Below are positions 7,201 through 28,504 of a stretch of 40,754 nt of DNA, in pieces. Source of the DNA: a virus. A model generated the notes under the pieces. It ran no database searches and was not told the origin of the DNA. It was given only the letters and a program-made list of their open reading frames with translations. Within the stretch, counting starts at the first letter, position 1. Every line of letters begins with the position of its first letter. Location of the stretch: the IMG/VR virus record IMGVR_UViG_3300028837_001857, positions 1 to 40,754 of that record; one strand, given 5' to 3'. Both the position numbers and the translations under genes were made by a program.

Positions 7201-7272
7201 AGCCACAAAGACACAAAGACACCAAGGAAATTTTTATAAAAAAACGCTTCGTGCCTTTGTGTCTTTGTGGCG
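7201..7272 (+). repeat. Palindromic repeat family A, copy 1
   Basis: A long imperfect inverted repeat: a left arm beginning GCCACAAAGACACAAAGACA, an A/T-rich loop, and a right arm ending CTTTGTGGCG. It lies between the two terminase genes, and the TerL GTG start falls inside the right arm. Confidence 0.9.
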
Positions 7273-9327
7273 AAAATTAAAAAAACCTTATACAACCTTA
7301 TGCAATTATTTGAGCAGCCCATAACGATCGAACATAAATGGATACCTGCCGTCCTTCCGGACATGGACAAGTACAAGTCCAACTACACCCTGAAATTAAA
7401 GGCCGGGGAAAAGAAAATATTCCGGAAGAAAAAGCCCATGCGGTGCAGTGTGTGGGCGGAACGGCATCGGGTGGTTACGCGGTCGTCCATACGGGGGCCG
7501 TGGCGGAACAGCAACTCGCCCTATTTAGCCGGGATTATGGATGCGAGCTTTTTTGAATCGGTCGAGACCGTCATTGTTTGCGCTGCGACCCAGGTGGGGA
7601 AAACCGAAGTGGTGAATAACTGTATCGGTTACTGCATGGATCGGAGGCCCGGGTCGGTGCTCTATATATACCCTGACGAGAACACCGCCCGGACAAACTC
7701 AAAGGACCGGATCGCGGAAATGATCCAGACCAGCCCGAAACTGAGCGAATATCTCACCGGCACGGATGACGATGTCTCTTTTGACCGGATAAACCTTATT
7801 CACATGGAGATTTATACCGGCTGGGCCAGGTCAGCGGCCCGCCTGGCCAACAAACCCTTGCCCTATGTGGTTTTCGACGAGGTGGACAAATACCCGGAGA
7901 CCGCCGGCAAAAAAGAGGCCGCGCCCATGGCCCTGGGGGAAAAGCGGACCCGCACCTTTTCTTCCATGCGCAAGATCTGGAAAATCTCGACACCCACCAC
8001 CGAAGAAGGCCCGATCTGGACGGCGCTCAATACAGAAGCGTCCGTTATTTTCGACTACTGGGTCGAGTGTCCGGCCTGCGGCGGGATGCAGGTCATGGTG
8101 TTCGACGAGGATCATTTCAAGTTTCCCGAGGACGAGCGGGATCCGGAGAAGGTCATCGCTAAAAAACTTGCCTGGTACGAGTGCGATTCATGTGGCTCAA
8201 GGTGGGACGAGGGGGCCAGGGACGAGGCGGTGAGGAATGGAGAATGGAGGGGTAGGGAGAAGGGTAAAGGGCGAATATCGAATGATGAATATCGAATGAT
8301 GAATGATGAAGGGAAGGATGGGCTGGAGTTGATGGAATATTTGCAGGCCCACAGGCCTCTGAAGATCGGGTTTCACCTGCCGGCGTGGCTGTCTCATTTT
8401 GTTACGCTCTCCGAGGTTGCCGGCCGTTTTATGAAGGGGCTTAAAGATAAGACTGCGCTTAAGGATTTTATGAACTCCGACTGCGCGGAGCCCTGGAAGG
8501 TGTATGAAATAGAGCGGCAGGAAGATCAGATCCTGGCGCTGCGGGACGACCGGCCCAGGGGCGTGGTGCCGGGCGGCGGGATCGTGGCGTGTCTGACGGC
8601 TGCGGTGGATACCCAGGACGACGGGTTTTATTACGAGATCCGAGCCTGGGGCTACGGCATGGAAAAAGAGTCCTGGTGTATCAGGGAGGGGTTTGTCACC
8701 GAATTTGACGCCCTGGTCCAGGTATTATGGCAGGATCGGTACGAGGACGGCGATGGCAATCCTTACATTGTCCGCCTGGTTCTCCATGATGCCATGGGCC
8801 ATCGGACGTCCGAGGTGTACGATTTCTGCCGGATCCACAGGGGGAAGATCCTGCCCATCAAGGGCGAACAGAGGATGAACCAGCCCTTTGCCTACACTAA
8901 TCTGGAATATTATCCCGGAAAAAGCCAGAACAAACCAATTCCCGGCGGGCTCAAGCTCGTTCGCGTCAACACGAATTATTACAAAAATGATCTGTCCAAT
9001 ATTTTAGAAGTCCCGGCGGCGGATCCCGGCGCCTGGCATTATCACAGCGAAACAACCGAGGACTGGGCCCGCCAGATGACCGCCGAATATATCGACGAAA
9101 AGGGCCTGTGGCAGCTCATGGCGTCCAGGGCCAACCACGCCTGGGACGTTTCCGTGTATAACCTTTGCGCCCACGATGTCCTGGGGGTGAAGTTCTGGCC
9201 CAAAGGGGAGGGTTCAGGGTTCAAGGTTCAGGGTTCAGAGGCTGGACGCAAGGTGCGGAGCAAGGGCATTGGCCGTGAAGGGTGGATCAGAAATTATGAA
9301 AGGCCGGGGTGGCTGAAAGATAGATGA
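7267..9327 (+). CDS. Terminase large subunit (GpA family)
   Basis: DNA-packaging motor and nuclease of the lambda GpA type. The ATPase has Walker A ATQVGKTE near residues 107-114 and Walker B YVVFDEVD near 200-207, followed by a coupling segment KISTPTTEEGP. A zinc-ribbon-like pair CPAC (near 269) and CDSC (near 306) is typical of GpA. The C-terminal nuclease begins LTAAVDTQDDGFYYEI near 440, with acidic residues at the usual places. Residues near 333-352 (GRISNDEYRMMNDEG) are encoded by repeat family C. The C-terminal GSGFKVQGSE is encoded by repeat family B. The start is uncertain: GTG at 7267 lies in repeat A, and ATG at 7300 is an alternative. Confidence 0.92.
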   Translation: MAKIKKTLYNLMQLFEQPITIEHKWIPAVLPDMDKYKSNYTLKLKAGEKKIFRKKKPMRCSVWAERHRVVTRSSIRGPWRNSNSPYLAGIMDASFFESVETVIVCAATQVGKTEVVNNCIGYCMDRRPGSVLYIYPDENTARTNSKDRIAEMIQTSPKLSEYLTGTDDDVSFDRINLIHMEIYTGWARSAARLANKPLPYVVFDEVDKYPETAGKKEAAPMALGEKRTRTFSSMRKIWKISTPTTEEGPIWTALNTEASVIFDYWVECPACGGMQVMVFDEDHFKFPEDERDPEKVIAKKLAWYECDSCGSRWDEGARDEAVRNGEWRGREKGKGRISNDEYRMMNDEGKDGLELMEYLQAHRPLKIGFHLPAWLSHFVTLSEVAGRFMKGLKDKTALKDFMNSDCAEPWKVYEIERQEDQILALRDDRPRGVVPGGGIVACLTAAVDTQDDGFYYEIRAWGYGMEKESWCIREGFVTEFDALVQVLWQDRYEDGDGNPYIVRLVLHDAMGHRTSEVYDFCRIHRGKILPIKGEQRMNQPFAYTNLEYYPGKSQNKPIPGGLKLVRVNTNYYKNDLSNILEVPAADPGAWHYHSETTEDWARQMTAEYIDEKGLWQLMASRANHAWDVSVYNLCAHDVLGVKFWPKGEGSGFKVQGSEAGRKVRSKGIGREGWIRNYERPGWLKDR
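8272..8311 (+). repeat. Dispersed repeat family C, copy 3 (in-frame, coding)
   Basis: ATCGAATGATGAAT iterations are read in frame within TerL, between the zinc-ribbon region and the nuclease domain, where an insertion is likely to be tolerated. Confidence 0.75.
9211..9240 (+). repeat. Dispersed repeat family B, copy 1 (partial, coding)
   Basis: A GGTTCA-GGGTTCA-AGGTTCA series forms part of the TerL C-terminal coding sequence. Only the GGTTCA half of the element is present; the TGAACC half is missing. Confidence 0.75.
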
Positions 9328-9333
9328 ACATCG

Positions 9334-9368
9334 CCCCAGTGAAACAGAAAAAGAAAGGTTTCACGGGG
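9334..9368 (+). other. Stem-loop after terminase
   Basis: CCCC-a-GTGAAAC (9334-9345) pairs with GTTTCAC-GGGG (9358-9368) around a 12-nt A-rich loop, giving 11 pairs with one bulge. It begins 6 nt after the TerL stop. No T run follows, so it is more likely an RNA processing or stability element than an intrinsic terminator. Confidence 0.6.
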
Positions 9369-9372
9369 TAAA

Positions 9373-9403
9373 AACATCGAACGTCCAACATCGAATGGTG
9401 AAT
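9373..9403 (+). repeat. Dispersed repeat family C, copy 4
   Basis: ACATCGAACGTCCAACATCG, intergenic. It ends at the start codon of the repetitive gene at 9402. Confidence 0.75.
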
Positions 9404-9929
9404 GAAAAAAATAAAGAAAAAGAAAAGGGCTGAATATCAAGCTAAATATCGCAAGGCCAATAAAGAGAAAAAAGCTGAATATGACGCTGAATATCGTATG
9501 GCCAATAAAGAGAAAATAGTTGAACATAACGCTAAATATCGCCAGGCCAATAAAGAGAAAAAAGCTGAATATGACGCTGAATATCGCCAGGCCAATAAAG
9601 AGAAAATAGCTGAATATCGCCTGACCAATAAAGAAAAAATAGCTGAACGAAAAACTGAATATCGTATGGCCAATAAAGAGAAAATAGTTGAATATAACGC
9701 TAAATATCGCCAGGCCAATAAAGAGAAAACAGTTAAATATAACGCTGAATATAGTGCTAAAAGAGTAGAGAAAATGCCCGAAGCATATATTAAGCAGTTA
9801 TTGGGAAAACAATATAATATTTCTGTGGCAGATGTGACGATTGAAATGATTGAATTTAAAAGAGAACTTTTAACATTTAAAAGATTAGAAAGGGGGTTGA
9901 AAGATGGGATTAATAGCGCAAGAGATTAA
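9402..9929 (+). CDS. Repetitive basic protein with YRxANKEK repeats
   Basis: A 175-residue protein whose first 120 residues are seven or eight near-identical units of about 15 residues with the consensus AEYxAxYRxANKEK (one unit is shorter, 11 residues). The rest (YIKQLLGKQY ... ITIEMIEFKRELLTFKR-like) resembles the C-terminal helix seen in small phage proteins linked to HNH/endonuclease VII families. No nuclease residues are visible. The repeats predict a long, charged, possibly single alpha-helix or coiled coil. They are also tandem at DNA level (about 9430-9760). The next gene overlaps it by 26 bp. Function is unknown; binding to nucleic acid is possible from the charge. Confidence 0.65.
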   Translation: MKKIKKKKRAEYQAKYRKANKEKKAEYDAEYRMANKEKIVEHNAKYRQANKEKKAEYDAEYRQANKEKIAEYRLTNKEKIAERKTEYRMANKEKIVEYNAKYRQANKEKTVKYNAEYSAKRVEKMPEAYIKQLLGKQYNISVADVTIEMIEFKRELLTFKRLERGLKDGINSARD

Positions 9930-10290
9930 AGAGTTAAGGCGGATGGTCAGGCTGCTTGATAATGGTAAAATTACAACGGAGCAGGTTGAAATTAAACTTA
10001 AAGTTTACAAAGAGACTCACAAAAGAGCCAGCCTTGTTTTGAATGCGTATATTGCCTGTAATAGTCCGCATTTAGTCGAAAAAAGATTACATGCTTTAAA
10101 CTTATTAAGCAAAGGGGAGTACTTGCAGCTTCCGGGTGATATTGAAATGGAAATGGTGGTTTGTCCTGATCAAGGGAAAGCAATTACAAGGGCGGAGTGC
10201 CTCTCTTTTTCTGGCGATGCATCAAATATGGAAAAGTGTCAAAGTTGCGAGCATTTTAAAACAACAAGGAAACTTCTTTTGCAAGAATGA
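9904..10290 (+). CDS. Small phage protein with C-terminal cysteine cluster
   Basis: A 128-residue protein: an N-terminal helical region (IKELRRMVRLLDNGKIT), then a putative metal site with four Cys in CPDQGKAITRAEC ... CQSC followed by His. A Shine-Dalgarno-like AGGGGG lies about 9 nt before the ATG. It overlaps both neighbours (26 bp upstream, ATGA downstream), so it is translated as part of this operon. I recognise the layout from other phages as a small zinc-binding hypothetical, with no known role. Confidence 0.65.
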   Translation: MGLIAQEIKELRRMVRLLDNGKITTEQVEIKLKVYKETHKRASLVLNAYIACNSPHLVEKRLHALNLLSKGEYLQLPGDIEMEMVVCPDQGKAITRAECLSFSGDASNMEKCQSCEHFKTTRKLLLQE

Positions 10291-10523
10291 AAAACACCCC
10301 GACTAAAATCGAGTGCCTGAAAGGGGCGGAGCAGATCTGTGGGTTTGTGAAGGAAGATCCGAAGCAGATTTTGTATTTGATCGAGCATGAGGCGCTGCCG
10401 GCGTGGAAGCGGAACGGGGAGAGGACCTGGCGGGCGCTGAATGTGGATTTGTATAACTGGATGGCGTATCAGCGGAATAAATATTTGAAAAATACACCTA
10501 AGTACATTAAGGAAGGTTCATAG
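10287..10523 (+). CDS. Small helix-turn-helix protein
   Basis: A 78-residue protein reading KGAEQICGFVKEDPKQILYLIEHEALPAWKRNG ... W. This pattern matches small winged-helix (excisionase/AlpA/MerR-like) DNA-binding domains, which start with an 'a-e-i' helix and end in a wing with the Trp-containing 'P-a-w-k' segment. Its start overlaps the previous stop as ATGA. Placed after terminase and before the head module, it may be a late regulator or a second packaging-related DNA-binding protein. Confidence 0.65.
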   Translation: MKNTPTKIECLKGAEQICGFVKEDPKQILYLIEHEALPAWKRNGERTWRALNVDLYNWMAYQRNKYLKNTPKYIKEGS

Positions 10524-10583
10524 GTTCAGGGTTCAAGGTTAAAAGGTTAAATCCTTCAACCGTGAACCGTGAACCGTGAACCT
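10515..10583 (+). repeat. Dispersed repeat family B, copy 2
   Basis: GGTTCA units on the left and CCGTGAACCGTGAACC units on the right form an imperfect inverted repeat. It begins within the last codons of the previous gene. Its right 31 nt are identical to the copy at 15154-15239. Confidence 0.9.
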
Positions 10584-10599
10584 CAAAAACCCTTGTCAA

Positions 10600-10641
10600 C
10601 ATCTTTTTAACCCCTTTTTTCATCTTTTTAAGCCCTTTTTT
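10600..10641 (+). repeat. Tandem 21-nt T-rich duplication
   Basis: Two adjacent 21-nt units, CATCTTTTTAA(C/G)CCC plus six T, differ at one base. They lie between repeat B and the hairpin that precedes the head operon. Confidence 0.8.
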
Positions 10642-10662
10642 CGTCGGATAACGATTTTATAA

Positions 10663-12492: not shown

Positions 12493-13438
12493 GAGCAAAC
12501 AGGACTACCTGAAACGATGCACAGCATATGAGGTCGAGCAGGGCAGCACAGCAAAGAAAGCATATGCGAAATGTAATATAATTTGGGATGAGGAAAAAAT
12601 GAGCCTGTCAGGCTTGAGTTTAAGCAGCAGGCCGGGAATGAACCTCAACATAGCTCCCGAACTGTTGGAAAAAAAGGGCAAGGCAAAACCGGAGTTTTTT
12701 ATCACGGCCTATACCGGGGCCATTATCGATTCATGGTGGAGGCAGATCGTTCTTGATATTAAGGGAATCGAAACTAAGGAAAAGATACCTGTTCTCAGGG
12801 AGCACATGAGGGACCGGGTCGTGGGTTTCGGGGATGCATGGAAAGAAAAGCATTTTTATATATCCGGGGAATTCTCTGAAAGCACAGACGATGCAAAGGA
12901 AGTCCTTGCATTGGCGAAAGAAGGTTATCCGTGGCAGGCATCAGTCGGCGTGTGGGCTGAAGAGGTTGAGGTTTTAAAAGACGAAAAAACAAAGGCAAAG
13001 GTCAATGGTAAGGAAGTCACAGGGCCGATGGAAATATGGAGGAAATCAAAAGTCGGTGAAGTGTCTTTCGTGTCATTAGGTGCCGACGACAACACGGCAG
13101 CTATTACAATGTCAGACAAGAGGAATGATGTTCATTTGTTGCCGATGTTGCCGACAGATAAAGCATTGACCTCGGAAAATTCCAATATGATTAATTTTGG
13201 CAGCACCGAGAAAAAAACTACAAAGGAGGAACCAATGGAAATTACGAAAGAACTACTCATGTCCGATTATCCGGATTTGCTTGCAGAAATTGAGCTTGCA
13301 GCCGAGAAAAAGGGCAGAGAGGAAGGGATCGCACAGGAGAGGGTCAGGGTCGTTGAGATCCTTAATTCCGAGGGCGATTTAAAGATTATCACGACATGCA
13401 GCATATGGTGGGAATACAATATCGTTTATTGCAGGTGA
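12470..13438 (+). CDS. Prohead protease, probably with truncated scaffold tail
   Basis: Caudovirus head-maturation serine protease. The N-terminal 45 residues form a small Cys-containing domain (DYLKRCTAYEVEQG). The protease has the catalytic His in LREHM (near residue 112) and the catalytic Ser in WQASVGVW (near 157), followed by KVGEVSFVSLGADD. A scaffold-like helical region starts around MEITKELLMSDYPDLLAEIE and ends abruptly after ILNSEGD with a Cys/Trp-rich tail (TTCSIWWEYN) unlike a scaffold. It may therefore be frameshifted or deleted at its end. AAGGAGG touches ATG 12461 and lies 9 nt before ATG 12470, so I prefer 12470. Confidence 0.8.
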   Translation: MPKPKKNESKQDYLKRCTAYEVEQGSTAKKAYAKCNIIWDEEKMSLSGLSLSSRPGMNLNIAPELLEKKGKAKPEFFITAYTGAIIDSWWRQIVLDIKGIETKEKIPVLREHMRDRVVGFGDAWKEKHFYISGEFSESTDDAKEVLALAKEGYPWQASVGVWAEEVEVLKDEKTKAKVNGKEVTGPMEIWRKSKVGEVSFVSLGADDNTAAITMSDKRNDVHLLPMLPTDKALTSENSNMINFGSTEKKTTKEEPMEITKELLMSDYPDLLAEIELAAEKKGREEGIAQERVRVVEILNSEGDLKIITTCSIWWEYNIVYCR

Positions 13439-15153: not shown

Positions 15154-15239
15154 GGTTCAGAGGTTCAACGTTCAGAGGTTCAAGGGTTAAAAAAACCTAA
15201 TCCTTCAACCGTGAACCGTGAACCGTGAACCCGGAACCT
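15154..15239 (+). repeat. Dispersed repeat family B, copy 3
   Basis: Four GGTTCA-type units, a short A-rich loop, then TCAACC and three GTGAACC units. It has the same orientation as the copy at 10515, and the two share an exact 31-nt block. Together they bracket the head module. Confidence 0.9.
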
Positions 15240-15730: not shown

Positions 15731-15797
15731 GCCACGAAGGCACAAAGACACCAAGGTTTTTTATTAAAATTTCTTAGTGCCTTAGTGCCTTGGTGGC
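15731..15797 (+). repeat. Palindromic repeat family A, copy 2
   Basis: The left arm starts GCCACGAAGGCACAAAGACA, the loop is T/A-rich, and the right arm ends CTTGGTGGC. It ends 22 nt before the tail-tube start codon. Confidence 0.95.
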
Positions 15798-15819: not shown

Positions 15820-16779
15820 ATGACACAACAACGCGGAGTAAATACCCAAATATTGTTAGGGTATGAAAACGTGGCTTTTGGCACGGTTTCCACCACGGGA
15901 TTTGTTCTGCCCATGAACACCTGCGGCATTACCGGAGTCAAAGCCCGGAACTCGCCGGCCACCCTCACCGGAACCCGGAACACAGTGGCGCCGTTTGCCG
16001 GCAATCAGGACGTGAACGGGCCTATTGTAATCCCGCTGGACTCTGGCGCCATGCCCTACTGGCTCACCGCCATGTTCGGAGATCCGACCAGCACCGGCGC
16101 GGATCCTTTTGTCCATGAATTCAAAGTGGCATCTGTCATGCCGAGTTTCAGCCTGGAAGAAGCTTTCACGGATTTGGCTGTAAATGTCTATCAGCGGTTC
16201 GTAGGCTGTAAGATTGGATCACTGGGCATGACTTTTGGCGGAGACGGCGAGCTGACCGGTGAGCTGGCGGTTTTGGGAGCAAAGATGAGCCATGAGGCCA
16301 GCGCATTCGACGCGGCTCCGACCACGGTGTCCCTGGCCCGGGTTGAGAACTTCGATGCTGCCATTCTTGAAGGGGGCGGGGCTCTATCCAATGCCACGGA
16401 GCTTTCCATCAATCTTGATTTCGGGCTGGACCCGAATTCGTTTGTGATCGGCGGCGGCGGGATCCGGGGGGACATTCCCGAAGGGTTCGTGGCCGTGACC
16501 GGGAATCTCAAAACTTTGTTCGAGGATAAATCCCTGCTGGACAAGGCCACCGGCGACACCGAAACGTCTCTCAAGATCACCGTTACCGCTTCGGCCAGCT
16601 CCATTTTGGAGTTCGAGATCCAGGAACTGCTCTATTCGGTGAACGGCGTGCCCGTGGAGGGTCCCCAAGGGCTGATAGTGAGTCTCGATTTTGTGGGATA
16701 TTATGACGATGGCGGCGAGGCCAGTAATATCGTTGCAAGGGTGACCAACAGCGTGGCGAGTTATGATCTGATCACTTAA
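15820..16779 (+). CDS. Tail tube protein
   Basis: A 319-residue major tail protein of the Phage_tube type. The N-terminal QILLGYENVAFGTV and the repeated barrel-like halves are typical, and it precedes the tail chaperone genes. It forms the hollow tube of the non-contractile tail. ATG 15820, with GAGG 7 nt upstream, is chosen over a TTG at 15790 within repeat A. A Gly-rich turn (VIGGGGIRGDIP) lies near residue 205. Confidence 0.85.
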   Translation: MTQQRGVNTQILLGYENVAFGTVSTTGFVLPMNTCGITGVKARNSPATLTGTRNTVAPFAGNQDVNGPIVIPLDSGAMPYWLTAMFGDPTSTGADPFVHEFKVASVMPSFSLEEAFTDLAVNVYQRFVGCKIGSLGMTFGGDGELTGELAVLGAKMSHEASAFDAAPTTVSLARVENFDAAILEGGGALSNATELSINLDFGLDPNSFVIGGGGIRGDIPEGFVAVTGNLKTLFEDKSLLDKATGDTETSLKITVTASASSILEFEIQELLYSVNGVPVEGPQGLIVSLDFVGYYDDGGEASNIVARVTNSVASYDLIT

Positions 16780-16782
16780 AAA

Positions 16783-16825
16783 GATGAACATCGAACATCG
16801 AACGTCCAACATCGAACATCGAATG
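16783..16825 (+). repeat. Dispersed repeat family C, copy 5
   Basis: GAACATCGAACATCGAACGT and following CCAACATCGAACATCGAAT, intergenic. It shares its core with the coding copy at 2970. Confidence 0.85.
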
Positions 16826-17457: not shown

Positions 17458-17526
17458 GCCACAAAGGCACGAAGACACCAAGGTTTTTTTTAATAAAATC
17501 TTTTAGTGCCTTAGTGCCTTTGTGGC
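17458..17526 (+). repeat. Palindromic repeat family A, copy 3
   Basis: GCCACAAAGGCACGAAGACA on the left and CCTTAGTGCCTTTGTGGC on the right. It starts directly after the stop of the chaperone fusion and ends 9 nt before the next ATG. Confidence 0.95.
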
Positions 17527-17535: not shown

Positions 17536-18120
17536 ATGCTGAAGATAGCCACCAAAGGATTCACCGGGCTTGAGCGGACGCTGAAGACCGAATCGAAGCG
17601 TCAGGAAAAAGCCCTTAACACCGCCATCAAGGTCGAGGGCTTTCGTCTTATGAGGCTTTTGAAAAAAGAGATCAGGGACGGAGCCCCTGGAGGGAATAAA
17701 TTCGATTCCCTGACTTTTCTTTCAAGGGCCTTCGGAGGCAAACGGCTCCGGCCTGACAAGCCGCTGCGGAGGCTGGCCATCGCGGTCCGGTATTTTGTCA
17801 AGGATCAATCACCTTTTGATATGCGGATTGGCTGGGTGGGTCCGCGAACGTCCAAATCGTGGAAGCGGATCGCAGAGCTGCAGCAGGAGGGATTTACCCG
17901 GCCTGTTTCAAAAGCCCGGCGAGAATTTTTCAGATCCCGTGGCCGGGGCATGTCCAAAGGATCCTCGGCCCAGAAATATATGTTTTTGCGAAAATCCACA
18001 ACCAGGTTCAGAACCCCGCCGCGACCCATCATGGACCCCTTCTGGAGAGCCCACGGCGGCAAGGCGTGGAGGAATATTCAAAGGAATTACAGGCTGAAGA
18101 TGCAGGGGAAGAGAATTTAA
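17536..18120 (+). CDS. Putative virion morphogenesis/tail completion protein
   Basis: A 194-residue, very basic protein with an N-terminal amphipathic helix (GLERTLKTESKRQEKALNTA), a helix VEGFRLMRLLKKEIRDGAPG, and a later segment EGFTRPVSKARREFFRSRG. The pattern recalls HK97 gp10-like or gpS-like tail completion proteins. Such genes usually lie before the tail tube; here it lies between the tail chaperone and the tape measure. There is no visible Shine-Dalgarno because repeat A ends 9 nt before the ATG. Confidence 0.6.
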   Translation: MLKIATKGFTGLERTLKTESKRQEKALNTAIKVEGFRLMRLLKKEIRDGAPGGNKFDSLTFLSRAFGGKRLRPDKPLRRLAIAVRYFVKDQSPFDMRIGWVGPRTSKSWKRIAELQQEGFTRPVSKARREFFRSRGRGMSKGSSAQKYMFLRKSTTRFRTPPRPIMDPFWRAHGGKAWRNIQRNYRLKMQGKRI

Positions 18121-18127: not shown

Positions 18128-18195
18128 GCCACAAAGGCACAAAGACACCAAGGTTTTTTTAATAAAATCTTTTAGTGCCTTAGTGCCTTAGTGGC
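18128..18195 (+). repeat. Palindromic repeat family A, copy 4
   Basis: The left arm is GCCACAAAGGCACAAAGACA and the right arm ends CCTTAGTGGC. It ends 9 nt before the tape-measure ATG. The bases around its end (GGCGGAAA) are the only purine-rich ribosome-binding candidate for that gene. Confidence 0.95.
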
Positions 18196-18204: not shown

Positions 18205-20253
18205 ATGGATCACAAACTTCAAATAGTATTAGCGGCCAGGGATGCCACAAAATCGGCATTCATGTCCGCCCAGGGGCAGGTCAAGGCGTTTACCAAGTCT
18301 GTTTTCAGCCTGCGTGGCGCCATGGTGGCCACCGCCGGCGCGGCGGCCATGGGCGCCATGATAAAAAAGTCCCTGGAGACCGCCGACGCCATCGGCAAGG
18401 CCGCCGATGCCATCGGCATATCCACGGACACACTCCAGGAATACCGTCACGCCGCCAGGATATCGGGGGTGGAAACAGCGTCCCTGGATAAAAGTATCGG
18501 CCAGTTTGCAAAGCGGGTGGGCGAGGCCCGGGCCGGTACCGGCGCCATGATCACCTATCTCAAAAAGTTTGACGAGCAGCTTCTGTCCAACATCCAAAAA
18601 TCGAAGTCCACCGACGAGGCCCTTGATCTTGTCTTTAAGCGCCTGGGCCAAACCGCATCCGCCACGGACAAAGCGGCCCTGGCAAATGCCGCCTTCGGCC
18701 GGTCCGGCCTGACTATGGTCAACATGGTCAAGGAAGGTGCCGAGGGGCTGGCCCGTCTCCGCCAGGAGGCCCGGGATTTAGGCATCGTCATGGACGAGCA
18801 GCTCATCCGCCAGAGCGAAAAGGCCAATGACGAGATCGAAAAGCTGACCAGGGTTTTAAAGGTCCAGTTCATGTCCGCCGCCGTTGGCCTGGCCCCGGAG
18901 ATCGCCAGGCTGGCTGAAAATACCACCAACTGGTGGAAGGCCAACCAGGATCTTGTAAAAACCGATGTGGCCGCCTTTGCCGATAAAATAAAAGGGACAG
19001 TTATCGAGATCAAAGCTGTTTACGATGCCCTGCCCGACGGTGTGATCGGCCCTGCAGGCGCCGGGTTGATCGGCACCATTCTTTTGGGTCCCGTGGGCGG
19101 CGTCACCGTGGGGCTGATCGCCGCCGCAACCCAAGAGACTTTAAAGGTTAAAAAAGAGCTCCAGGATATTTACGGCAGCGTCAAGCGATACCTCACCGAC
19201 GATCGACTCTTTCGCGGCGCCGGCGCCACTGGTTCCTGGGGAGAGCCGGAAACGCCCGCGCCCACGTCCACACCGCCGCCGGTCGTGGACACGGGCGGAG
19301 CCGACAGGGGTAAAGAACTCAGCACCGAATTACAGCAATACTATGGATGGTGGTCGGCGTACGGCGATTCGATGGAGGAATTTTATACGACCAATTCAAA
19401 AGTGTATCTGGATACAACAAAATCAGACATCGAAAAATCCAAAGAAGCATTCCAGGAGATGTACTCGGATCTTAAATTTCAATCCGAAGATTACTACCAA
19501 TACCGCCTGGAACAGCTTCAGCAGCAGGCCGCCGATTACGAAAAATACACCGGGGATACGGTCCTGGCCCACCAATGGCTCGCGGAGCAGATCAAGGCCC
19601 TGGACCAGGAGCGTCTGGACGCGGCAGGCCAAACCAACCAATGGCTCGTCGATATGTCGGAAAGAACATCAGATGCCATTGAAGAAAATTTCTCCAAGTT
19701 CTTTAGGGATTTTTTCGGCGGGGAGCTGGACTCGGCCGAAGAATATTTCCGGGCGTTCTGCAACTCCCTGTCAGACAGTTTTTCGGACATGATGGGCCAG
19801 ATGATGAAGGAAATGATGTTTGGCGGCGGAAGTGGCGGCGGAAGTGGCGGCGGCGGATTTTTCAGCTCGCTTATATCCGGGATCGGCGGGCTGTTCGGAG
19901 GAGGAGGAGGCGGCGGCGGTGGCGGCGGATATAATGCAGCGGACTGGGCTACTACCCTCTGGCATAAGGGCGGCACGGTCGGGCAAGATACCGCACCCAC
20001 GCGAACCGTGCCCGCGTCCCTGTTCGCCCACGCGCCCCGCCTGCATGGTGGATTAGCCCCGGATGAGTTCCCGGCTATCCTACAACAAGGTGAGACCGTG
20101 ATTCCCAGGGGACAATCCGCCACCCAGGTAAAAAACCTGACCATCAGCGTGCCGGTAACCATAGAGGGCCAGGGGGACGACCGTCTGGCGTCGATTCTTT
20201 CACAAGAAATGGAAGAGACCGCCAAGCGGGTGATGAGAGAGGAAATGAGATAA
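18205..20253 (+). CDS. Tape measure protein
   Basis: A 682-residue protein that sets tail length, roughly 100 nm at the usual 0.15 nm per residue. Residues 1-60 are the typical start (LQIVLAARDATKSAFMSAQG) and a hydrophobic Ala-rich helix. Helical regions follow, then a hydrophobic segment near 275-310 (GPAGAGLIGTILLGPVGG) that may enter the host membrane. Residues near 510-580 are glycine-rich (GGSGGGSGGGG, then an eleven-Gly run). The C-terminus has the usual HKGGTVG ... GGLAPDEFPAILQQGETVIP ending. Confidence 0.92.
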   Translation: MDHKLQIVLAARDATKSAFMSAQGQVKAFTKSVFSLRGAMVATAGAAAMGAMIKKSLETADAIGKAADAIGISTDTLQEYRHAARISGVETASLDKSIGQFAKRVGEARAGTGAMITYLKKFDEQLLSNIQKSKSTDEALDLVFKRLGQTASATDKAALANAAFGRSGLTMVNMVKEGAEGLARLRQEARDLGIVMDEQLIRQSEKANDEIEKLTRVLKVQFMSAAVGLAPEIARLAENTTNWWKANQDLVKTDVAAFADKIKGTVIEIKAVYDALPDGVIGPAGAGLIGTILLGPVGGVTVGLIAAATQETLKVKKELQDIYGSVKRYLTDDRLFRGAGATGSWGEPETPAPTSTPPPVVDTGGADRGKELSTELQQYYGWWSAYGDSMEEFYTTNSKVYLDTTKSDIEKSKEAFQEMYSDLKFQSEDYYQYRLEQLQQQAADYEKYTGDTVLAHQWLAEQIKALDQERLDAAGQTNQWLVDMSERTSDAIEENFSKFFRDFFGGELDSAEEYFRAFCNSLSDSFSDMMGQMMKEMMFGGGSGGGSGGGGFFSSLISGIGGLFGGGGGGGGGGGYNAADWATTLWHKGGTVGQDTAPTRTVPASLFAHAPRLHGGLAPDEFPAILQQGETVIPRGQSATQVKNLTISVPVTIEGQGDDRLASILSQEMEETAKRVMREEMR

Positions 20254-20258
20254 AAAAA

Positions 20259-20330
20259 GGTTCAAGGTTCAAAGGTTCAGAGGTTCATAGGTTAAAAATC
20301 CTTCAACCCTGAACTCTGAACCAGGAACCT
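20259..20330 (+). repeat. Dispersed repeat family B, copy 4
   Basis: GGTTCAAGGTTCAAAGGTTCA on the left half and CTTCAACCCTGAACTCTGAA on the right. It fills the gap between the tape measure and the next gene. Confidence 0.9.
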
Positions 20331-20352
20331 TATAAAACCAAAGGTTTTTACT

Positions 20353-20726: not shown

Positions 20727-20795
20727 GCCACGAAGGCACAAAGGCACCAAGGATTTTTAGAAAAAAACCTCTTAGTGTCTTGGTGTCTTGGTGGC
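20727..20795 (+). repeat. Palindromic repeat family A, copy 5
   Basis: GCCACGAAGGCACAAAGGCA on the left and GTCTTGGTGTCTTGGTGGC on the right. It ends 18 nt before the hub start codon. Confidence 0.95.
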
Positions 20796-20813: not shown

Positions 20814-23800
20814 ATGTCCATCACATTAGACGCCACATTAAAAACCGCCCAGGACGGTGACAGCCACCGTCCCATCGTTGATTTAGTTACCTCCCCGATG
20901 GAAGCGGCAATCCCGTTTCGGGGCAGCAATTTCAACACCGGAGACATTACGGAATCTAACAGGGACCTGATTGTCACATCCTCGGGCCGGCTGGCCAATG
21001 TATATTTGCTGGATGGCGATCTTTATTATTACTACAGCAACACGGATACCAACCAGTGGCAAACCCCGGTGTATATCGGTACAGGATTGGGAGATATCTT
21101 GTCCGCATCCGTCTGTGAATTAACCAATGGCCACCTGGGTGTGATCCTGGTTAAAGCTAATTATGACCTGGGTTATATGATTATTTCCCAGACCGGCTCC
21201 ATCGAAACAGCATACGCGGCCATATCAACCGGCAATTCCTGGGTTGGCGGGGTGTCCGTAATCACGCTGGCCAATAATACATATTTGCTGATCTGTGCGG
21301 ACGGTGATGCCGAGCCACCCGGTGATTCGGACAACTACTACCTGCAAAAACGAACTTCTTCCAATTTTACGTCATGGAGCGCCGCGAGCGATATATCACT
21401 CCCGGGGCTAAGCGTTCCGCATTACAAAAACAATCCTCATCTGCTCCAAATTACCAGCGGGCGCATATATTTGCATTTCGATTATTTGACCAGTCTGACC
21501 AATGATATTGAGGTGCGAAATGTCTATTACGTGATCTCGGATGATAACGGATCGTCATGGTCTGTGCCGGCGGCGGTTACATCTCATGGTGAAATCGGGA
21601 AAATGGCCACTAATCCGGTGGCGGGGGAAAAAGAAGACGGGAATATCATTGTAGTTTATCAGGAAGAAAATAACACATTACATTATCATAACATGGACGG
21701 AACCGGCGATCTGGATTGGGTTGGAAATGCGCTTGCTTACGATCCGGCCCAACAGTTAATAATTGCTACAAATCATGATGAGTGGTTTACGACGCCGTGT
21801 GTAATGGCAATCGATACAGGGACCAATCAGTTTATAAAATATTGGGATGATAGTACGAGCCCATTGTTTACCGGCGATTTTAAAACCATGTTTAATCAAA
21901 ATGGAGGATGTAAGTATCCGTTTTATTTGTTTTCACATTCTGAGAACGACAACCACGGAGATAGCAGGCATGCAATCGAGGTATTGAATTACGTTGAAGA
22001 CTCAATAACCAAATATCAAACCGGAATTAATTTTAACATTGGTCGCATAGGATCTTATGGTCATGATTGGTGGGATGGCATAACGCCTTTTGTGCGTCTT
22101 GTCAGTGATACCGACAGACGGCTTTATATCGGATACAAGAGAACAGATTATGCTATTCATGGCCCTCCCGCATTTTTGTTGGGGTATATCGATTTGGATG
22201 AAGTTGCCGACCCAATATCAGGCATGTATACGTGGCACGAAGTGGCGTATATTTCATATGGCCCGTCTGACAGTTGGGGCATTAATTCGCTGTGGTGGGA
22301 AGAATCGATCCAACGGTTTGTTTTGTTGCATAATAGCCAAGATCGAGATACGGGCAACCCTACTGATTACGGAGGCGTTTGGTTTATAGATGATGACGGT
22401 GTTCTTACAGATGTATGGAGCCACGGAGACAATGCTGGATTACCAAAAGGCGGCGCTTATCGAGGTGTTTGGAGGCAGGGAAACGAAATAAAAGGAAATA
22501 TCTGGTTTACGTTTGAATATTTAGCAGGTTATCCCGACAGGCGTGGTTTGTGCCGGTTAAATTTAGATACTAATGCATTTACATATCACGAACCCACCTG
22601 GTTCACATGCACCGGGGATTGCGGGCTCAATGATCTGGAGGCCATCGATGGTGACAGGATATTGATGACGTGCAATGCCGGGGATTGTGACAAATCAGGG
22701 GTTGTAATTCTTGACACCGGAACGATGGAGTGGACAATTTATAACAATAATACAATCCCCGGCATGTTCTGGCGATCTCCGACAAATTGCTCGCGCTGGA
22801 GGAGCGATAGGGTTGTGGTGCAATATGATGTCTCCACAAAAACAATTTATGCGGCATATGGCGGGCACCAAAACCATGCGTATGATCAATATATGGGCAT
22901 CATATATTTTTCTGAATATGGTTCTTATTCAATTTTGAAATACCTTACGGTAACGATACCGGATGGCGCTCCAGTATATGGCGAGGAGGCGTCACTAAGC
23001 TATTACAGTTTTGAATATAATCCTGCACTCACAATAGATGCTGATGGATATGCATGGTTTACATGGGACCATATGGATTCCACTGTGGAAAACTCATTGG
23101 TATGGGCAAATACAATGAGCGATAAACAGGTGGAGGATTATTTGGTTGACGGCTCAATTTTGCAGATTGAATGGGAAGTGGATAAACCTAATAAGCTCAC
23201 TTTTTCCATGTCAAACGGGCACCTGTTCGATCCGCTGAATTATTTGTCAATATGGTCGATCTATTTTAGAGCGGGCAGAGTTTTAACGCTGAAGTTGGGC
23301 GAGAGGGTCGGGGAAGCGGATTATTTGCAGGCCCAGGGCAAATATATCGTAAAGGAAACATCCCTGTCATACACCAAGAGTTATCCGATAATCAGAGTTG
23401 TGGCCGAAGATTCGCGGTCTTTGTGGGATGATACTCATATTATTGCCAGCGAATATTTTAGCGATGTTTCTCCTAAAACGGTAACAGAGAGCCTCCTGGT
23501 TGATCACGGAGGGTTAACGGGTTCTGATTATGATATTCCGGCGTACGAAGAGTCGCACAATTTATATCATCAATTTGTTGATATGAATTTGGCTGACGCT
23601 CTCCGTCTCATTCTGGACCATTTCGGGTATTTTGGATTCATGAATGTAGATGGAAAATATCAGCCGCGCAGGGTACGGGTTGCCGGGTCTCCGGATCATA
23701 TTTATACGGGCGCGGAAATAATAGAATTTACGCCGGACAGTAAATATGCAACGTGGCTCAATCGAATTATAGTGACCGGAATGTCCAATATATTCTCCGA

Positions 23801-24572
23801 GGTGTTATATGAGCTGGAGTCCGTAAAAACTGTAACCGGTTCCGTGGGTTTTTGGAGCGGGGACGAAGATTTAACCGTTTATTATGCCGACGACAAGCAG
23901 CGCACGTGCCGTGATCCCAGGCTGGATATTACCACATCGGTGTCCGAATTTGAGATATGGGGCATGAAAGGGGGCGGATCGGAAGAGATCAGCAGTGTAG
24001 ATGCGGATGAACATTATGTGGTTATAACCATCGAGATTCCGGATTTGACCGGGATGTTAATTGCGTCGGTGGCCGCGCTGGTGGGTGTAGGCACGGCATG
24101 CACTTTTTGTGACGGGTACGTGACCGGATGGTGCGGGTACTGTATGCTTGCGATAACAACATTGCTTAATCTGGTTTTGATGATCCTTGGAGCAGTGGCT
24201 TCTTATGCCTATGACATCTGGGCGCGTCCGGTCGGTCATGAGCGGGCTACTTTTCAGGCCCTGGCGGATGATGAAGAATTTCAACAGCAACTTAACGGAA
24301 AAATTATTGCCGAGACCATAGATGATCCTTTTTGTTATATGATTTCCCGGTGTCAATTGGTGGCCGATTTTGAACTTTCTGTTGTAGAAGCCCAGCGCCG
24401 GCGCCTGGCTTTCAAAAAAACAGGTCATTTGCAGGATGAAATCGGAGATATTCTGCGAATAAGCCATCCATATTCCGGTGAAGATATAGAATTGCTGGTT
24501 ACCGGGTTAAAGCGATCCGTAAAAATCGGCGGAGAAATTGCCGACACTATCGAAGGGTGGCGGCTGTCATGA
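20814..24572 (+). CDS. Giant tail hub/tip protein with sialidase-like insertion and hydrophobic segment
   Basis: A 1252-residue protein. Residues 1-40 and about 780-1252 look like one tail-hub protein; the C-terminal part has ILQIEWEVDKPNKLTFSMSN, VVAEDSRSLWDD and LADALRLILDHFGYFGF. About 700 residues of beta-propeller-like sequence lie between, with a clear Asp-box SDDNGSSWS near residue 241 and WF-containing blades. This suggests surface-glycan binding or cleavage. Residues near 1080-1137 contain two very hydrophobic stretches (MLIASVAALVGVGTA and MLAITTLLNLVLMILGAVAS) around a CTFC ... CGYC loop, unusual for a virion protein. ATG 20814 is chosen; the upstream start at 20775 lies in repeat A. 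The stop overlaps the next gene as ATGA. Confidence 0.75.
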   Translation: MSITLDATLKTAQDGDSHRPIVDLVTSPMEAAIPFRGSNFNTGDITESNRDLIVTSSGRLANVYLLDGDLYYYYSNTDTNQWQTPVYIGTGLGDILSASVCELTNGHLGVILVKANYDLGYMIISQTGSIETAYAAISTGNSWVGGVSVITLANNTYLLICADGDAEPPGDSDNYYLQKRTSSNFTSWSAASDISLPGLSVPHYKNNPHLLQITSGRIYLHFDYLTSLTNDIEVRNVYYVISDDNGSSWSVPAAVTSHGEIGKMATNPVAGEKEDGNIIVVYQEENNTLHYHNMDGTGDLDWVGNALAYDPAQQLIIATNHDEWFTTPCVMAIDTGTNQFIKYWDDSTSPLFTGDFKTMFNQNGGCKYPFYLFSHSENDNHGDSRHAIEVLNYVEDSITKYQTGINFNIGRIGSYGHDWWDGITPFVRLVSDTDRRLYIGYKRTDYAIHGPPAFLLGYIDLDEVADPISGMYTWHEVAYISYGPSDSWGINSLWWEESIQRFVLLHNSQDRDTGNPTDYGGVWFIDDDGVLTDVWSHGDNAGLPKGGAYRGVWRQGNEIKGNIWFTFEYLAGYPDRRGLCRLNLDTNAFTYHEPTWFTCTGDCGLNDLEAIDGDRILMTCNAGDCDKSGVVILDTGTMEWTIYNNNTIPGMFWRSPTNCSRWRSDRVVVQYDVSTKTIYAAYGGHQNHAYDQYMGIIYFSEYGSYSILKYLTVTIPDGAPVYGEEASLSYYSFEYNPALTIDADGYAWFTWDHMDSTVENSLVWANTMSDKQVEDYLVDGSILQIEWEVDKPNKLTFSMSNGHLFDPLNYLSIWSIYFRAGRVLTLKLGERVGEADYLQAQGKYIVKETSLSYTKSYPIIRVVAEDSRSLWDDTHIIASEYFSDVSPKTVTESLLVDHGGLTGSDYDIPAYEESHNLYHQFVDMNLADALRLILDHFGYFGFMNVDGKYQPRRVRVAGSPDHIYTGAEIIEFTPDSKYATWLNRIIVTGMSNIFSEVLYELESVKTVTGSVGFWSGDEDLTVYYADDKQRTCRDPRLDITTSVSEFEIWGMKGGGSEEISSVDADEHYVVITIEIPDLTGMLIASVAALVGVGTACTFCDGYVTGWCGYCMLAITTLLNLVLMILGAVASYAYDIWARPVGHERATFQALADDEEFQQQLNGKIIAETIDDPFCYMISRCQLVADFELSVVEAQRRRLAFKKTGHLQDEIGDILRISHPYSGEDIELLVTGLKRSVKIGGEIADTIEGWRLS

Positions 24573-26116
24573 GGATGTACGATCAAAAATTTGCAAAGCG
24601 GTGGTTTGACAAGGGGTCGAGTGTTAGAACCGAATCCAGGGACGCCGTGTTGTGGACAATCGATTGGGCTAACCGTATTTGCAATGTGAAAATTCAGGGT
24701 TCCAATGAGTTGGTCACCGCCCATTTTCCGCAAAACGAGGCCACCCTTATGGGATTTATGCGGGCAGGAAATGCAGTGCGGGTTGTGCATCGCGGCGGCG
24801 TTCGAGGCTATCTTGAAGTTGTGGGGCACGGCATGGCTATCCCGACTCCCGTGTCGGGGGGGTCCCACCCTGAAATTTCAGGCCTGCCGGATGAGATTGT
24901 TTCCGGAGGCCAGATCATTCCCACCGAGCCTGCTTCCATGAGCGTAACCATATTAGACGGTACCTACCGGATTAACGGCGTAGTGTACAGCCTGTCCGGC
25001 GGGGCATTCGGAGAGCCGGAGACTGCCGAAGATTCCACTATTTTAACCGATGAAACCTACCCGCCCATGTACACGGATGATCCTTATGAGTATGAAACGA
25101 CCGCCGAGGATTCCACTATTTTAACCAACGAGATTTTTCCTCCCATGTACACGGATGATCCCATCGGCGACTATGAACTCGATCCGGCGCCCACCGGGAA
25201 TAAATTCAGGTATGACGGTTTTTATGTGGGCACGGACGGCATCATAACATATCTTAAAGGATCCGAAGCATCGAGCAGCCCGGTAAAGCCGTCAATCCCA
25301 AGCGATACGGTGCTGATCGGAGAATATATTTTATTGTGGACAGGGGTTACCGAAATTACCGGCCAGCATATCGGGATGTTGTGGGAAGAGCCCTGCGCAT
25401 CCGATGTTTCTATTACTGCAATTGATGAGTTTGCATGGGACGGCGGAGACAGTACCCCTGAAACTGATGTAACACTCACGGTGTTAAATCAGTATGGATG
25501 GGCGATTTCCGGCGCGTATTTATTAGTTTTAAACATGATGATGGGTTCCGGGCAGATATATTCCGCACAAACGGGGTGGCATGCATCCCAGGCCAGCCAG
25601 GAAATTGACGGAACTTCTTACGCCTTTGTGTACCAACGTAACCAGGCCGTTGTTGAGACATCGCCCTATTTTATGGCTACCGCTTACAGTGATGACGGCA
25701 AACAGACCCATGCGAATTTTCATCGCATGATTTTGCTTTCCGAAGGCGGCACGGAAATAGAAGGAGATCAAGGCCATGCGATCACGGCTCCAAATACAAG
25801 CCAAACACTAACACCGGCGTCAAACGTGGAAGTGGATTGGTATGATGGTCACAAGGCAGAGATTGAAATGGATCGGGACATTACTTTTACTTTTGTTAAT
25901 GCTTTAAATCAAGACAGGCTAATCCTGGCAATCGAGCAGGACAGCACGGGGGGATGGACGCCCACGTTGCCTTCATCTGTAAAGTACGGGGCAGAAATTA
26001 CAAGCGTGACTATAGATACGACAGCGAACAAAAGATCTTGTCTCGGTTTTATTTATCATGCAGCATCCGGGAATTACGACCTGGTGGCTAATGTCTCCGG
26101 CTATCCGGCATCATAA
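24569..26116 (+). CDS. Tail tip/baseplate-spike protein
   Basis: A 515-residue protein coupled to the hub gene by an ATGA overlap. Residues 20-100 have a beta-barrel look ([39 protein letters not shown]), like OB-fold spike or hub-associated proteins. A directly repeated 26-residue unit ([12 protein letters not shown] ... PPMYTDDP) follows near 152-203. The C-terminal part has an Ig-like segment ([19 protein letters not shown]) and a final [15 protein letters not shown] ... region typical of phage fibre appendages. It probably links the hub to the fibres. Confidence 0.65.
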
Positions 26117-26127
26117 GAGGAGAAATT

Positions 26128-26562
26128 ATGGCAACAGAACACAACTGGTCAGCTTATGACACAATAGCGGATGCTATTACTGGATCAAGCCTGAATTCTT
26201 TAGCAGATGGCGGAACAGCGCTGGGGAGCGTAATTGACAACACTTCCGACAAGGAGCTGTATATTCAGTTTGAGGTTAATTTAGCATCAGTGGACCTCTC
26301 CGGGCAAAATCAATGTGCGGTTAATTTATATATTGTTCAAAGTCTGGACGGGACGAACTATGCGGACACAAACGTGTTAGATTACAAGCGTTTATGCTCG
26401 GTTGGAGTAAACAATACAAACGCCGCCCACAAAGAAGTTTCGCACCCGTGCGTAATTCCGCCCGGAAAATTCAAAATTAACATCGAAAATAAAACAGGGG
26501 CCGCATTTGCTTCATCCGGGAACACGATTAAATATAGAACATTCAGCATGGAATCAGCGTAA
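26128..26562 (+). CDS. Tail fibre-region virion protein
   Basis: A 144-residue beta-rich protein ([37 protein letters not shown]) resembling small accessory proteins found in phage fibre loci that carry jelly-roll-like domains. A strong AGAGGAG precedes the ATG. The stop and the next start overlap (TAATG). Specific function unknown. Confidence 0.6.
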
Positions 26563-27431
26563 TGCTTGTTGGAATACCAAATTTTAACAGACCAAAGGAA
26601 AAGCCGCAAAATATTATAGCCGGCCGATCAAGGGAAGACATCTGTTACTCCGTGCGGCATTGGAGTGAAAACGTATTAGGTGCGCCAGCGCCCGTGATAG
26701 CCATGCCATTTGCAGAAGGTGCCGGTGAAACGTGTTATAACTACGGTGCTGTGAGAAAACAACCATCTCCTGTCGGTCCGGCATATCAAAAGTGGTCGGG
26801 CAATCATTACTCGTTTGGGGATACGGGATATGATGAAAATTATATTAGCTTTGGAAATGAATCAGGATTAGTGCCGACGTCCGAATTAACGGCATTTGGG
26901 GTTTATTATCATACTGGATTGTCGTCGAGCCCATATGCACCTGTCATTCGTAAAAACAGTGTTTTTGCGATGGACCTTTTAAACAGAGTTACTTTAAGAG
27001 CTTTGATTAAAACAACAGGAGGTACTGACGCGTGGACAGGGGCTAATGATCAGACGATAACTTTCGATTATAACCCTCACTCTGTTGCAATCGCATGGGA
27101 CGGGGATGGAATCGATATGTATCAAGACGGCTCACTAAAAGGTGTAAAGCCGTGTTCTGGAGCCGTTGTCTCCAACTCAAGTATCGTAACGGTAGGAGGG
27201 AACGATTATAGCTCTTGTTATAACATAAAGGGCCCCGGTGGCTCTGGTGGATTATATAATTTTCTTTTTTGGCATTATGGTCTGGCTCAGAGCCAAATAG
27301 AATTTTTAGAAGAACATCCTTATGGGATGTATGTGCCGATAAAAAGACCTCTTTATTTTTTTATTGGTGTGTACGCTGAAGCACCGCCGGAATATGATCC
27401 AAGAACAAGTTCTTTCTTCTTGGTTATGTAA
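26562..27431 (+). CDS. LamG/concanavalin-like tail fibre protein
   Basis: A 289-residue protein. The middle (LNRVTLRALIKTT ... VAIAWDGDGIDMYQDGSLKG) and the C-terminal YNFLFWHYGLAQSQIEFLEE, ending in an EHPYGMYVP-like strand, match LamG-type jelly-roll domains. Those domains in phages usually end with a helix (S-Q-I-x-x-L) and 'P-Y-x-M-F/Y-x-P'. It likely binds host surface sugar. Its start overlaps the previous stop. Confidence 0.75.
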   Translation: MLVGIPNFNRPKEKPQNIIAGRSREDICYSVRHWSENVLGAPAPVIAMPFAEGAGETCYNYGAVRKQPSPVGPAYQKWSGNHYSFGDTGYDENYISFGNESGLVPTSELTAFGVYYHTGLSSSPYAPVIRKNSVFAMDLLNRVTLRALIKTTGGTDAWTGANDQTITFDYNPHSVAIAWDGDGIDMYQDGSLKGVKPCSGAVVSNSSIVTVGGNDYSSCYNIKGPGGSGGLYNFLFWHYGLAQSQIEFLEEHPYGMYVPIKRPLYFFIGVYAEAPPEYDPRTSSFFLVM

Positions 27432-27441
27432 GGGAGGTTAC

Positions 27442-27663
27442 ATGGAACAAATATTGAAGGACATACTTAAAGAGTTGAAGTACCAGACCAAGCTAATGGA
27501 AGATATGTTCCATAATAGGGACGCAAAAAACGTTGGCGCCCGGCAGATACAAGATCACATGACCTCATTAATGGCCAATGTGAAAATGATGCCGGGGATG
27601 AAACAACCGCAAGTACAGAAAGTGCTGGATGATTTAATGAACATAATTCCGGGAGGTAAATAA
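27442..27663 (+). CDS. Small helical phage protein
   Basis: 73 residues, helical and amphipathic (MEQILKDILKELKYQTKLME), with a Met-rich C-terminal half. AGGGAGG lies 4-10 nt before ATG 27442. An upstream in-frame start at 27364 would overlap the fibre gene and is less likely. The stop overlaps the next start (TAATG). No family recognised; translational coupling implies a virion or assembly role. Confidence 0.65.
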   Translation: MEQILKDILKELKYQTKLMEDMFHNRDAKNVGARQIQDHMTSLMANVKMMPGMKQPQVQKVLDDLMNIIPGGK

Positions 27664-27932
27664 TGAGCACAAATTACCACACACCGTATCCGGCGGCTAT
27701 GGCATACAAGACAAGTCTGCTAAACGTCCCGCCCGGCGAGCTGGACGCACAGATTACGATCAACGCGGCGGATATAGCCGCTCTGGAAGCAGACATCAAC
27801 CAAGCAGGATTATCAGCCGGAGCCGGAAAGATTGTGCTGGTCAATGCCGGCGGCACGGCATTGGAGTTTGTGGATGTCATATTTCATGACGATGATTTCA
27901 TCGTGCATGACGATGATTTTATATATCATTAG
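27663..27932 (+). CDS. Small tail-fibre-like protein
   Basis: 89 residues: an Ala-rich start, an ITINAADIAALEADINQAGL segment with a coiled-coil-like pattern, then GAGKIVLVNAGGTALEFVDV, as seen in trimeric fibre proteins, and an acidic repeat tail (FHDDDFIVHDDDFIYH). It fits a small fibre or fibre-tip segment. Confidence 0.6.
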   Translation: MSTNYHTPYPAAMAYKTSLLNVPPGELDAQITINAADIAALEADINQAGLSAGAGKIVLVNAGGTALEFVDVIFHDDDFIVHDDDFIYH

Positions 27933-27940
27933 AAATGATA

Positions 27941-28008
27941 GCCACAAAGGCACAAAGACACCAAAGTTTTTTTATTAAAGTTTCTTAGTGTCTTAGTGCC
28001 TTGGTGGC
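27941..28008 (+). repeat. Palindromic repeat family A, copy 6
   Basis: GCCACAAAGGCACAAAGACA on the left and AGTGCCTTGGTGGC on the right. It ends 21 nt before the next ATG, which has its own AAAAGGAG. Confidence 0.95.
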
Positions 28009-28029
28009 GAATAAAAAGGAGAAAATCCC

Positions 28030-28422
28030 ATGTCTAAAAAATTGTTTGATTATGCATTAACGAAACTCACGGCAGCGCCGGTAACTCTGGATTTGTCCGG
28101 GACCGGGCAAACCACGATTTACACCGTGCCCGCCGGAAAAATCATGATCCCGGTGGGGATCGGCCTGGTGGCCGGTGCGGATTGCGGGGCGTCGATTATC
28201 ACAGCCGGGCGAGTGGGCGCGCTAACTGATTTCCTGGGGTCCCAGACCTTGAGCAATATTGACGCGTCCGGAGACATGGCCTGGCTCCAGCCTGTGCCCA
28301 ATGCCACGCCGGTTTTGCTCAAAACCTATGCCGCCGCCGTCGTTTTTCAGATCGACGTGACCACGGCCCTGGGCGGCGCCACCAATTATGTGGATCTGTT
28401 CGGGTGGTTAAAGGATGCATAA
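28030..28422 (+). CDS. Hypothetical virion protein
   Basis: A 130-residue protein with beta-sheet character (TTIYTVPAGKIMIPVGIGLV, PVLLKTYAAAVVFQIDVTTA), low charge and many Ala/Gly, typical of small phage structural proteins. AAAAGGAG precedes the ATG. It is bracketed by two family A repeats and has no recognised family. Confidence 0.65.
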   Translation: MSKKLFDYALTKLTAAPVTLDLSGTGQTTIYTVPAGKIMIPVGIGLVAGADCGASIITAGRVGALTDFLGSQTLSNIDASGDMAWLQPVPNATPVLLKTYAAAVVFQIDVTTALGGATNYVDLFGWLKDA

Positions 28423-28432
28423 CTGAAAGATC

Positions 28433-28504
28433 GCCACGAAGACACAAAGACACCAAGAAAGTTTTTTAAAAAAGAAAATCTTAGTGCCTTGGTGCCTTAG
28501 TGGC
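28433..28504 (+). repeat. Palindromic repeat family A, copy 7
   Basis: The left arm is GCCACGAAGACACAAAGACA and the right arm ends GGTGCCTTAGTGGC. It follows the previous stop by 10 nt and lies 53 nt before the next ATG. Confidence 0.95.

Follow-up and report, generated by a model that had tools for sequence, protein, structure and literature searches.

The DNA analysed here, a virus record of 40,754 bases from IMG/VR (referred to as the window) that represents a phage of sediment bacteria, carries seven short palindromic repeats, termed F1, in the gaps between its late genes. These repeats look like spreading elements shared with bacterial hosts, not like a fixed control signal of the phage. 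F1 is probably a host-shared, horizontally spreading family of interspersed imperfect palindromes that settle in intercistronic slots: in this tailed-phage lineage, the junctions between structural genes would be the slots, places without coding sequence where hairpin elements can settle, and the genes beside them would descend vertically while the elements are replaced.

The F1 palindromes of the window

All seven F1 copies (67-72 bp each) are found on the + strand of the late region and within gene gaps (Table 1). Each arm comprises three 8-nt units, CAC-N-AAG-R, and is closed by GCCAC/GTGGC; the two arms are inverse copies around a variable loop, which is AT-rich in the phage. The seven same-oriented copies reported by the first-pass annotation are present at seven gene gaps, the first beginning at 7202 and not at 7201, and each scores better by 12-25 bits in + orientation. 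The arms pair at 18-23 positions over 21-26 nt, which replaces the earlier figure of about 22 of 25, and one copy (R5) lies just below the 80% arm threshold applied to inverted repeats. A chance origin is excluded, because the two-unit pattern CACAAAGRCACVAAGR (at most two mismatches) matches 26 times in the window versus 0.26 times expected and comparable inverted repeats appeared in none of three block shuffles. The earlier worry about an assembly artefact is countered by a contig from a second sample (L012), which is 100% identical to the window and also carries R1.

Each copy had been expected to form a strong RNA hairpin, and energies of -22 to -36 kcal/mol are indeed predicted. Five of the seven end 9-22 nt ahead of a start codon, in line with the annotation's "most", the exceptions being the first (28 nt) and the last (53 nt). 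The terminase start, which had been placed inside the repeat, could be at GTG 7267, although a start at ATG 7300 is more likely.

Exchange of elements at orthologous junctions

Further short-unit families occur in the window: F2 (GAACATC), F3 (GGTTCA, palindromic), F4 (GATTGTT) and F5 (CGCGAATGGA). Between 7165 and 28557, 12 of the 13 gene gaps of at least 40 nt hold F1, F2, F3 or F5, and at the remaining junctions the genes overlap or are separated by at most 13 nt. F2, F3 and F4 are also found within open reading frames (ORFs), which they leave unbroken; F1 is never intragenic in the window.

Related viral contigs of the same gene order were retrieved via the tail protein g15820 (74-89% identity) and the major head protein; their capsid and tail proteins are 74-92% identical to those of the window. 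At the corresponding junctions (slots A0 and A to F), they carry unrelated palindromic short-unit families or no element, and one family recurs inside a genome: the AAGGTNA family occupies slots A, B and D or F in L207 and L209/L210, with a CAAATAAC family at C; L212 has F3 in three slots; L217 has TTTTAGG at A, B and E and a GTAGGGCAGGC palindrome at C and D; L225 and L014 have a GGTTTACGG family at the same junctions; L208 has F4 at A and F1 at A0; and L211 has F1 at A, B and C. Several slots are empty in L214, L237, L223 and L230. The k-mer similarity of elements is 0.191 for different slots of the same genome versus 0.056 for the same slot of different genomes (0/2000 permutations). The family in a slot is thus set by the genome and not by the slot, which points to horizontal replacement of elements and to their copying among the slots of one genome. 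R2 and the F1 copy of L208, which occupies a different slot, share 88% identity, against 77% for the flanking g15820 gene. The proposed comparison of phages with and without copies at the same junctions returned other families or empty slots, and F1 itself in L211; the general expectation that phage genomes are free of such families fails for this clade.

Among cultured phages, no similar DNA was found. Distant prophages of the same class (large terminase subunit 35-58% identical) are mostly without such gap fillers, so the phenomenon is limited to part of the phage lineage or its hosts.

The relatives show two further peculiarities. Slots C and D of L208 and slot D of L212, junctions with hairpins in the window, contain additional inserted sequence of 1.0-4.6 kb that probably represents added genes (morons). 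In L207, L209, L013, L014, L225, L217 and others, the Shine-Dalgarno sequence is often the GGA triloop of a perfect mini-hairpin, usually 6-12 nt ahead of the ATG and with varying stems (AAAATCC-GGA-GGATTTT, AAATGC-GGA-GCATTT, AATTAC-GGA-GTAATT); nearly all of these are on the coding strand, with ~0.1 expected per contig, and the window has none. They resemble the GGA-loop sites of CsrA-type regulators.

Copies in bacterial chromosomes and in an unrelated phage

The left arm of F1 was matched in records of Desulfobacterales, Planctomycetes, Aminicenantes, Acidobacteria, Nitrospinae, Bacteroidota and Rhizobacter. Within the order of the Desulfobacterales metagenome-assembled genome CSMAG_768, F1 was found in 85 of 389 sampled genomes; among 146 genomes of this order, F3 was matched in 45, the TTTTAGG family in 28 and the AAGGTNA family in 21. 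Two genomes, G002 and G138 (the latter a single 8 Mb contig), contain 35 core-exact full F1 palindromes each, and the reversed control pattern gave none. Host copies mostly lie outside ORFs (62/67), many of them at most 20 nt from the upstream stop, and F1 elements are also found between convergent genes. Five F1 copies also occupy gene gaps of an unrelated phage, which was recovered from two samples (G022/G023, with 100% identity over 17 kb) and encodes a phage terminase, portal and tape measure protein. In G001, eight of nine orientable co-directional copies agree in orientation; since orientation is mixed in the other genomes, its bias was not used as evidence.

The search of the unit against host genomes and related phages that had been suggested thus found F1 and the three other families tested in multiple copies in bacterial chromosomes, and F1 also in L208 and L211. 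Together with the unrelated phage and the other interspersed families at the junctions of the relatives, this supports the earlier suggestion of mobile elements shared with the host.

Unusual arrangements were seen in two further records: in Pararhodonellum marinum (L129, 5890-6594), seven F1 palindromes follow each other head-to-tail with a period of ~107 bp, and in L091 (6631-6715) an F1 palindrome holds an AAAATTG-unit repeat in its loop, giving a nested appearance.

The occupied gaps could alternatively reflect intercistronic RNA hairpins selected by the phage, which would protect or define mRNA 3' ends or separate the translation of adjacent late genes; the sequence then being free, families could be exchanged while the hairpin persists. 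Such a role would agree with the position of the hairpins a few nt past the stop and ahead of the Shine-Dalgarno sequence, with the filling of 12 of the 13 larger gaps of the structural block, mostly by hairpins, with the strong folding of unrelated families in the same slots (z -3 to -12 in most filled slots), and with the open start region and single orientation in the window. It fits poorly with the empty slots of L214, L237, L223 and L230, with fillers that barely fold (F2 at slot B, z -1.1; slot B of L208, z -1.5) and with the presence of the same elements between convergent host genes. Moreover, because the repeat-free junctions overlap or measure at most 13 nt, insertion was possible only where the hairpins now stand. 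Selection by the phage for RNA hairpins is therefore considered unlikely.

More specific control functions were also examined. A search for intrinsic terminators (GC hairpin plus T run on the coding strand) matched none of the six F1 copies between 15000 and 29000 on the + strand, and A-rich sequence follows all seven hairpins; this candidate was rejected. Occlusion of the start site was rejected as well, the start region staying open at the copies. A scan of the window against Rfam yielded no match at the gathering score. Terminator and translation-blocking roles thus have no support, and the earlier alternative of elements co-opted to control mRNA processing or translation, which several relatives without an element at a given junction also speak against, gained no positive evidence.

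A stem of constant blocks and mismatched spacers

The first sample of copies had been retrieved with a window copy as query; because this may introduce a bias, the comparison of facing arm positions was repeated on 126 host copies picked by a core-only pattern that is blind to N and R. Facing N positions are matched in 69 of 378 cases (18%) versus 37% expected for independent arms (z -7.1), and facing R positions in 28% versus 46% (z -6.4), both z values being upper limits since copies within a genome share descent. The excess of N mismatches has the same direction in each of six genome groups; the best-supported single case is G002 (10 matches in 99 versus 31 expected; 0/4000), where the loops differ in nearly every copy. 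Compared in pairs, 82 distinct F1 copies differ by 0.02-0.05 in the core versus 0.23-0.65 at N; in re-scanned contigs, the core mostly shows 0-2 mismatches in 38 positions, and a tail of decayed copies is nearly absent from three of the four genomes (G001, G002, G006). As facing N and R positions are mismatched beyond chance, the F1 stem is maintained as 3-bp blocks (CAC, AAG) with single spacer positions preferentially unpaired, N most and R less. Co-variation of the arms was rejected: a copy's own arms pair no better than arms borrowed from other copies, and worse at N and R.

A core that is nearly invariant across genomes while N and the loops vary, at a constant spacing of 8 nt, might also be expected if CACNAAGR were the putative site of a DNA- or RNA-binding protein, arrayed three per arm and borrowed by the phage from its host. 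Families with very different cores, however, occupy the same slots, a pure binding site needs no mismatch at facing variable positions, and we know of no protein that binds CACNAAGR; a protein-binding array thus seems very improbable.

Possible mode of spread

If F1 is a spreading, host-shared family, its copies may move by recombination or template switching between host and phage copies and from slot to slot. The mismatches may be kept because near-perfect palindromes are unstable or attacked by hairpin nucleases; in Escherichia coli, loss of perfect palindromes through SbcCD is established in general. For the phage, the elements would have little effect beyond a tolerated insulation of adjacent cistrons.

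Several points weigh against this explanation. Neither an enzyme that would mobilise the elements nor a target duplication was seen, and no insertion event could be dated. The uniform orientation in the window (7/7) and in G001 (8/9) is not what random insertion favours, and whole-element copying fails to explain why loops vary between the copies of G002 while the cores stay constant. The shared descent of copies within a genome somewhat reduces the force of the mismatch statistics. The tRNA-Met gene of the window matches the order of CSMAG_768 by ~80% over part of its length, a weak match that does not identify the host.

A more far-reaching possibility, which we put forward tentatively and with less assurance than the spread of F1 itself, is that F1 and its sister families form one unrecognised class of horizontally spreading hairpins, distributed over several phyla and carried by phages, in which the core is kept paired and the spacers are actively mismatched, so that the 3-bp blocks form a regular ladder; phage gaps would be interchangeable docking slots. 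If so, phages may ferry hairpin elements between hosts. Work on interspersed palindromes usually concerns single chromosomes, which offer no means of dating the copies; since family replacement is seen here at orthologous junctions of close relatives, turnover, direction of transfer and cost become directly measurable. The regular mismatch rule offers a testable clue to the maintenance of the stem. As a caution, such phage hairpins should not be taken for phage-specific regulatory signals.

Features of the window

The window has a tRNA-Met gene at its left end and an integrase gene near its right end; genes for terminase, portal, head protease, scaffold, major head, tail and tape measure proteins were identified. 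Compared with the otherwise identical L012, it lacks 351 bp (L012 13385-13735) at 13399/13400, so that the head protease gene loses its 3' end and the scaffold gene its start; this is either a real deletion or an assembly difference. At 9350-9797, ORF 9402-9929 is made of a 45-bp (15-aa) coding tandem repeat in ~8 copies.

Table 1. Repeat elements located in the window
Element	Positions	Strand	Context
F1 copy R1	7202..7271	+	upstream of terminase large subunit, ATG 7300; present in L012 too
F1 copy R2, slot A	15731..15797	+	before tail protein gene 15820-16779 (phrog_290)
F1 copy R3, slot C	17458..17526	+	before gene 17536-18120 (phrog_222)
F1 copy R4, slot D	18128..18195	+	before tape measure gene 18205-20253
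F1 copy R5, slot F	20727..20794	+	before gene 20814-24572
F1 copy R6	27941..28008	+	between genes 27663-27932 and 28030-28422
F1 copy R7	28433..28504	+	between genes 28030-28422 and 28558-30255
F2 repeat	2618..2649	+	in ORF 2307-3764, reading frame kept
F2 repeat	2971..3012	+	in ORF 2307-3764, reading frame kept
F2 repeat	9373..9404	+	after terminase gene
F2 short-unit repeat (GAACATC units), slot B	16784..16825	+	
F3 half-element	9207..9241	+	in 3' end of terminase ORF
F3 palindrome (GGTTCA units)	10515..10585	+	
F3 palindrome, slot A0	15154..15239	+	
F3 palindrome, slot E	20257..20334	+	after tape measure gene
F4 repeat (GATTGTT units)	33548..33585	not assigned	
F4 repeat	37064..37101	not assigned	in ORF 36825-37586
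F5 short-unit repeat (CGCGAATGGA units)	7165..7195	+	immediately 5' of R1

Comparison with known repeat systems

The first-pass annotation had likened the repeats to repetitive extragenic palindromic (REP) sequences or miniature inverted-repeat transposable elements (MITEs). REP sequences, which form bacterial interspersed mosaic elements (BIMEs) and are associated with REP-associated tyrosine transposases (RAYTs), and CGTC repeats share with F1 that they are small intergenic palindromes of high copy number; many of them are plausibly transcribed downstream of genes, and CGTC repeats have no dedicated transposase (PMC3733652). REP sequences measure 20-40 bp and have a conserved unpaired tetranucleotide (PMC3733652), in contrast to the 67-72 bp of F1. 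In the flanks of 83 F1 copies, a GTAG/CGTC tag is not conserved: GTAG adjoins only one of the seven window copies, and it is not conserved in the hosts. The RAYT domain Y1_Tnp was not found in four of ten F1 genomes, including the nearest (G001), and F1 was absent from the 12 Y1_Tnp loci examined, all in draft and hence incomplete genomes; a RAYT origin was rejected on these grounds. The REP label is therefore not retained. As regards MITEs, inverted arms are present but no consistent target duplication stands beside the copies; no MITE hallmark emerged, transposase ends not having been searched for. Movement by a transposase, be it a RAYT/Y1 or a DDE enzyme, would suit short, palindromic, intergenic, multi-copy elements of patchy distribution over phyla; given the lack of a conserved tag, the length of F1, the failure to find Y1_Tnp in some F1 genomes and the lack of a consistent duplication, it appears improbable.

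Rickettsia palindromic elements can lie in-frame within genes, a placement shared by F2, F3 and F4; they differ in that their sequence is unrelated and that F1 is confined to gaps in the window. The short tandemly repeated repetitive (STRR) sequences of cyanobacteria are dispersed, degenerate 7-nt tandem units. F1 is likewise dispersed, and it has 8-nt units with variable N and R in two inverted arms; other slot families have 7-nt units. We know of no STRR description that includes slots in phage genomes. In the literature searched, limited to open-licence papers, neither the exact unit sequences nor phage junction slots of this kind were reported.

Two systems come closest, each by analogy. 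In the P6b stem-loop of the Nostoc trnL intron, Class I (TDNGATT) and Class II (NNTGAGT) repeats occur (PMC4476775): a hairpin stem is built of short degenerate repeats with variable positions, and related strains repeatedly swap the motif class at one place. Homologous slots A to F similarly hold alternative repeat classes in the window and its relatives, a likeness of behaviour and not of sequence membership. The Nostoc case concerns one place in a group I intron, one lineage and 7-nt motifs, whereas elements of the F1 kind involve many junctions and families, phage and host, and several phyla. The TAACTGA direct repeats of Beggiatoaceae, cyanobacteria and Bacteroidetes are intergenic short-unit repeats, most of them several nt upstream of starts, and their patchy spread suggests horizontal transfer by no evident mechanism (PMC4679880). 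They consist of one invariant heptamer in direct repeat, with no inverted arm or variable position, and phages are not reported there (PMC4679880). In its behaviour, F1 thus seems closest to the Nostoc trnL P6b stem, and in its placement to the TAACTGA repeats.

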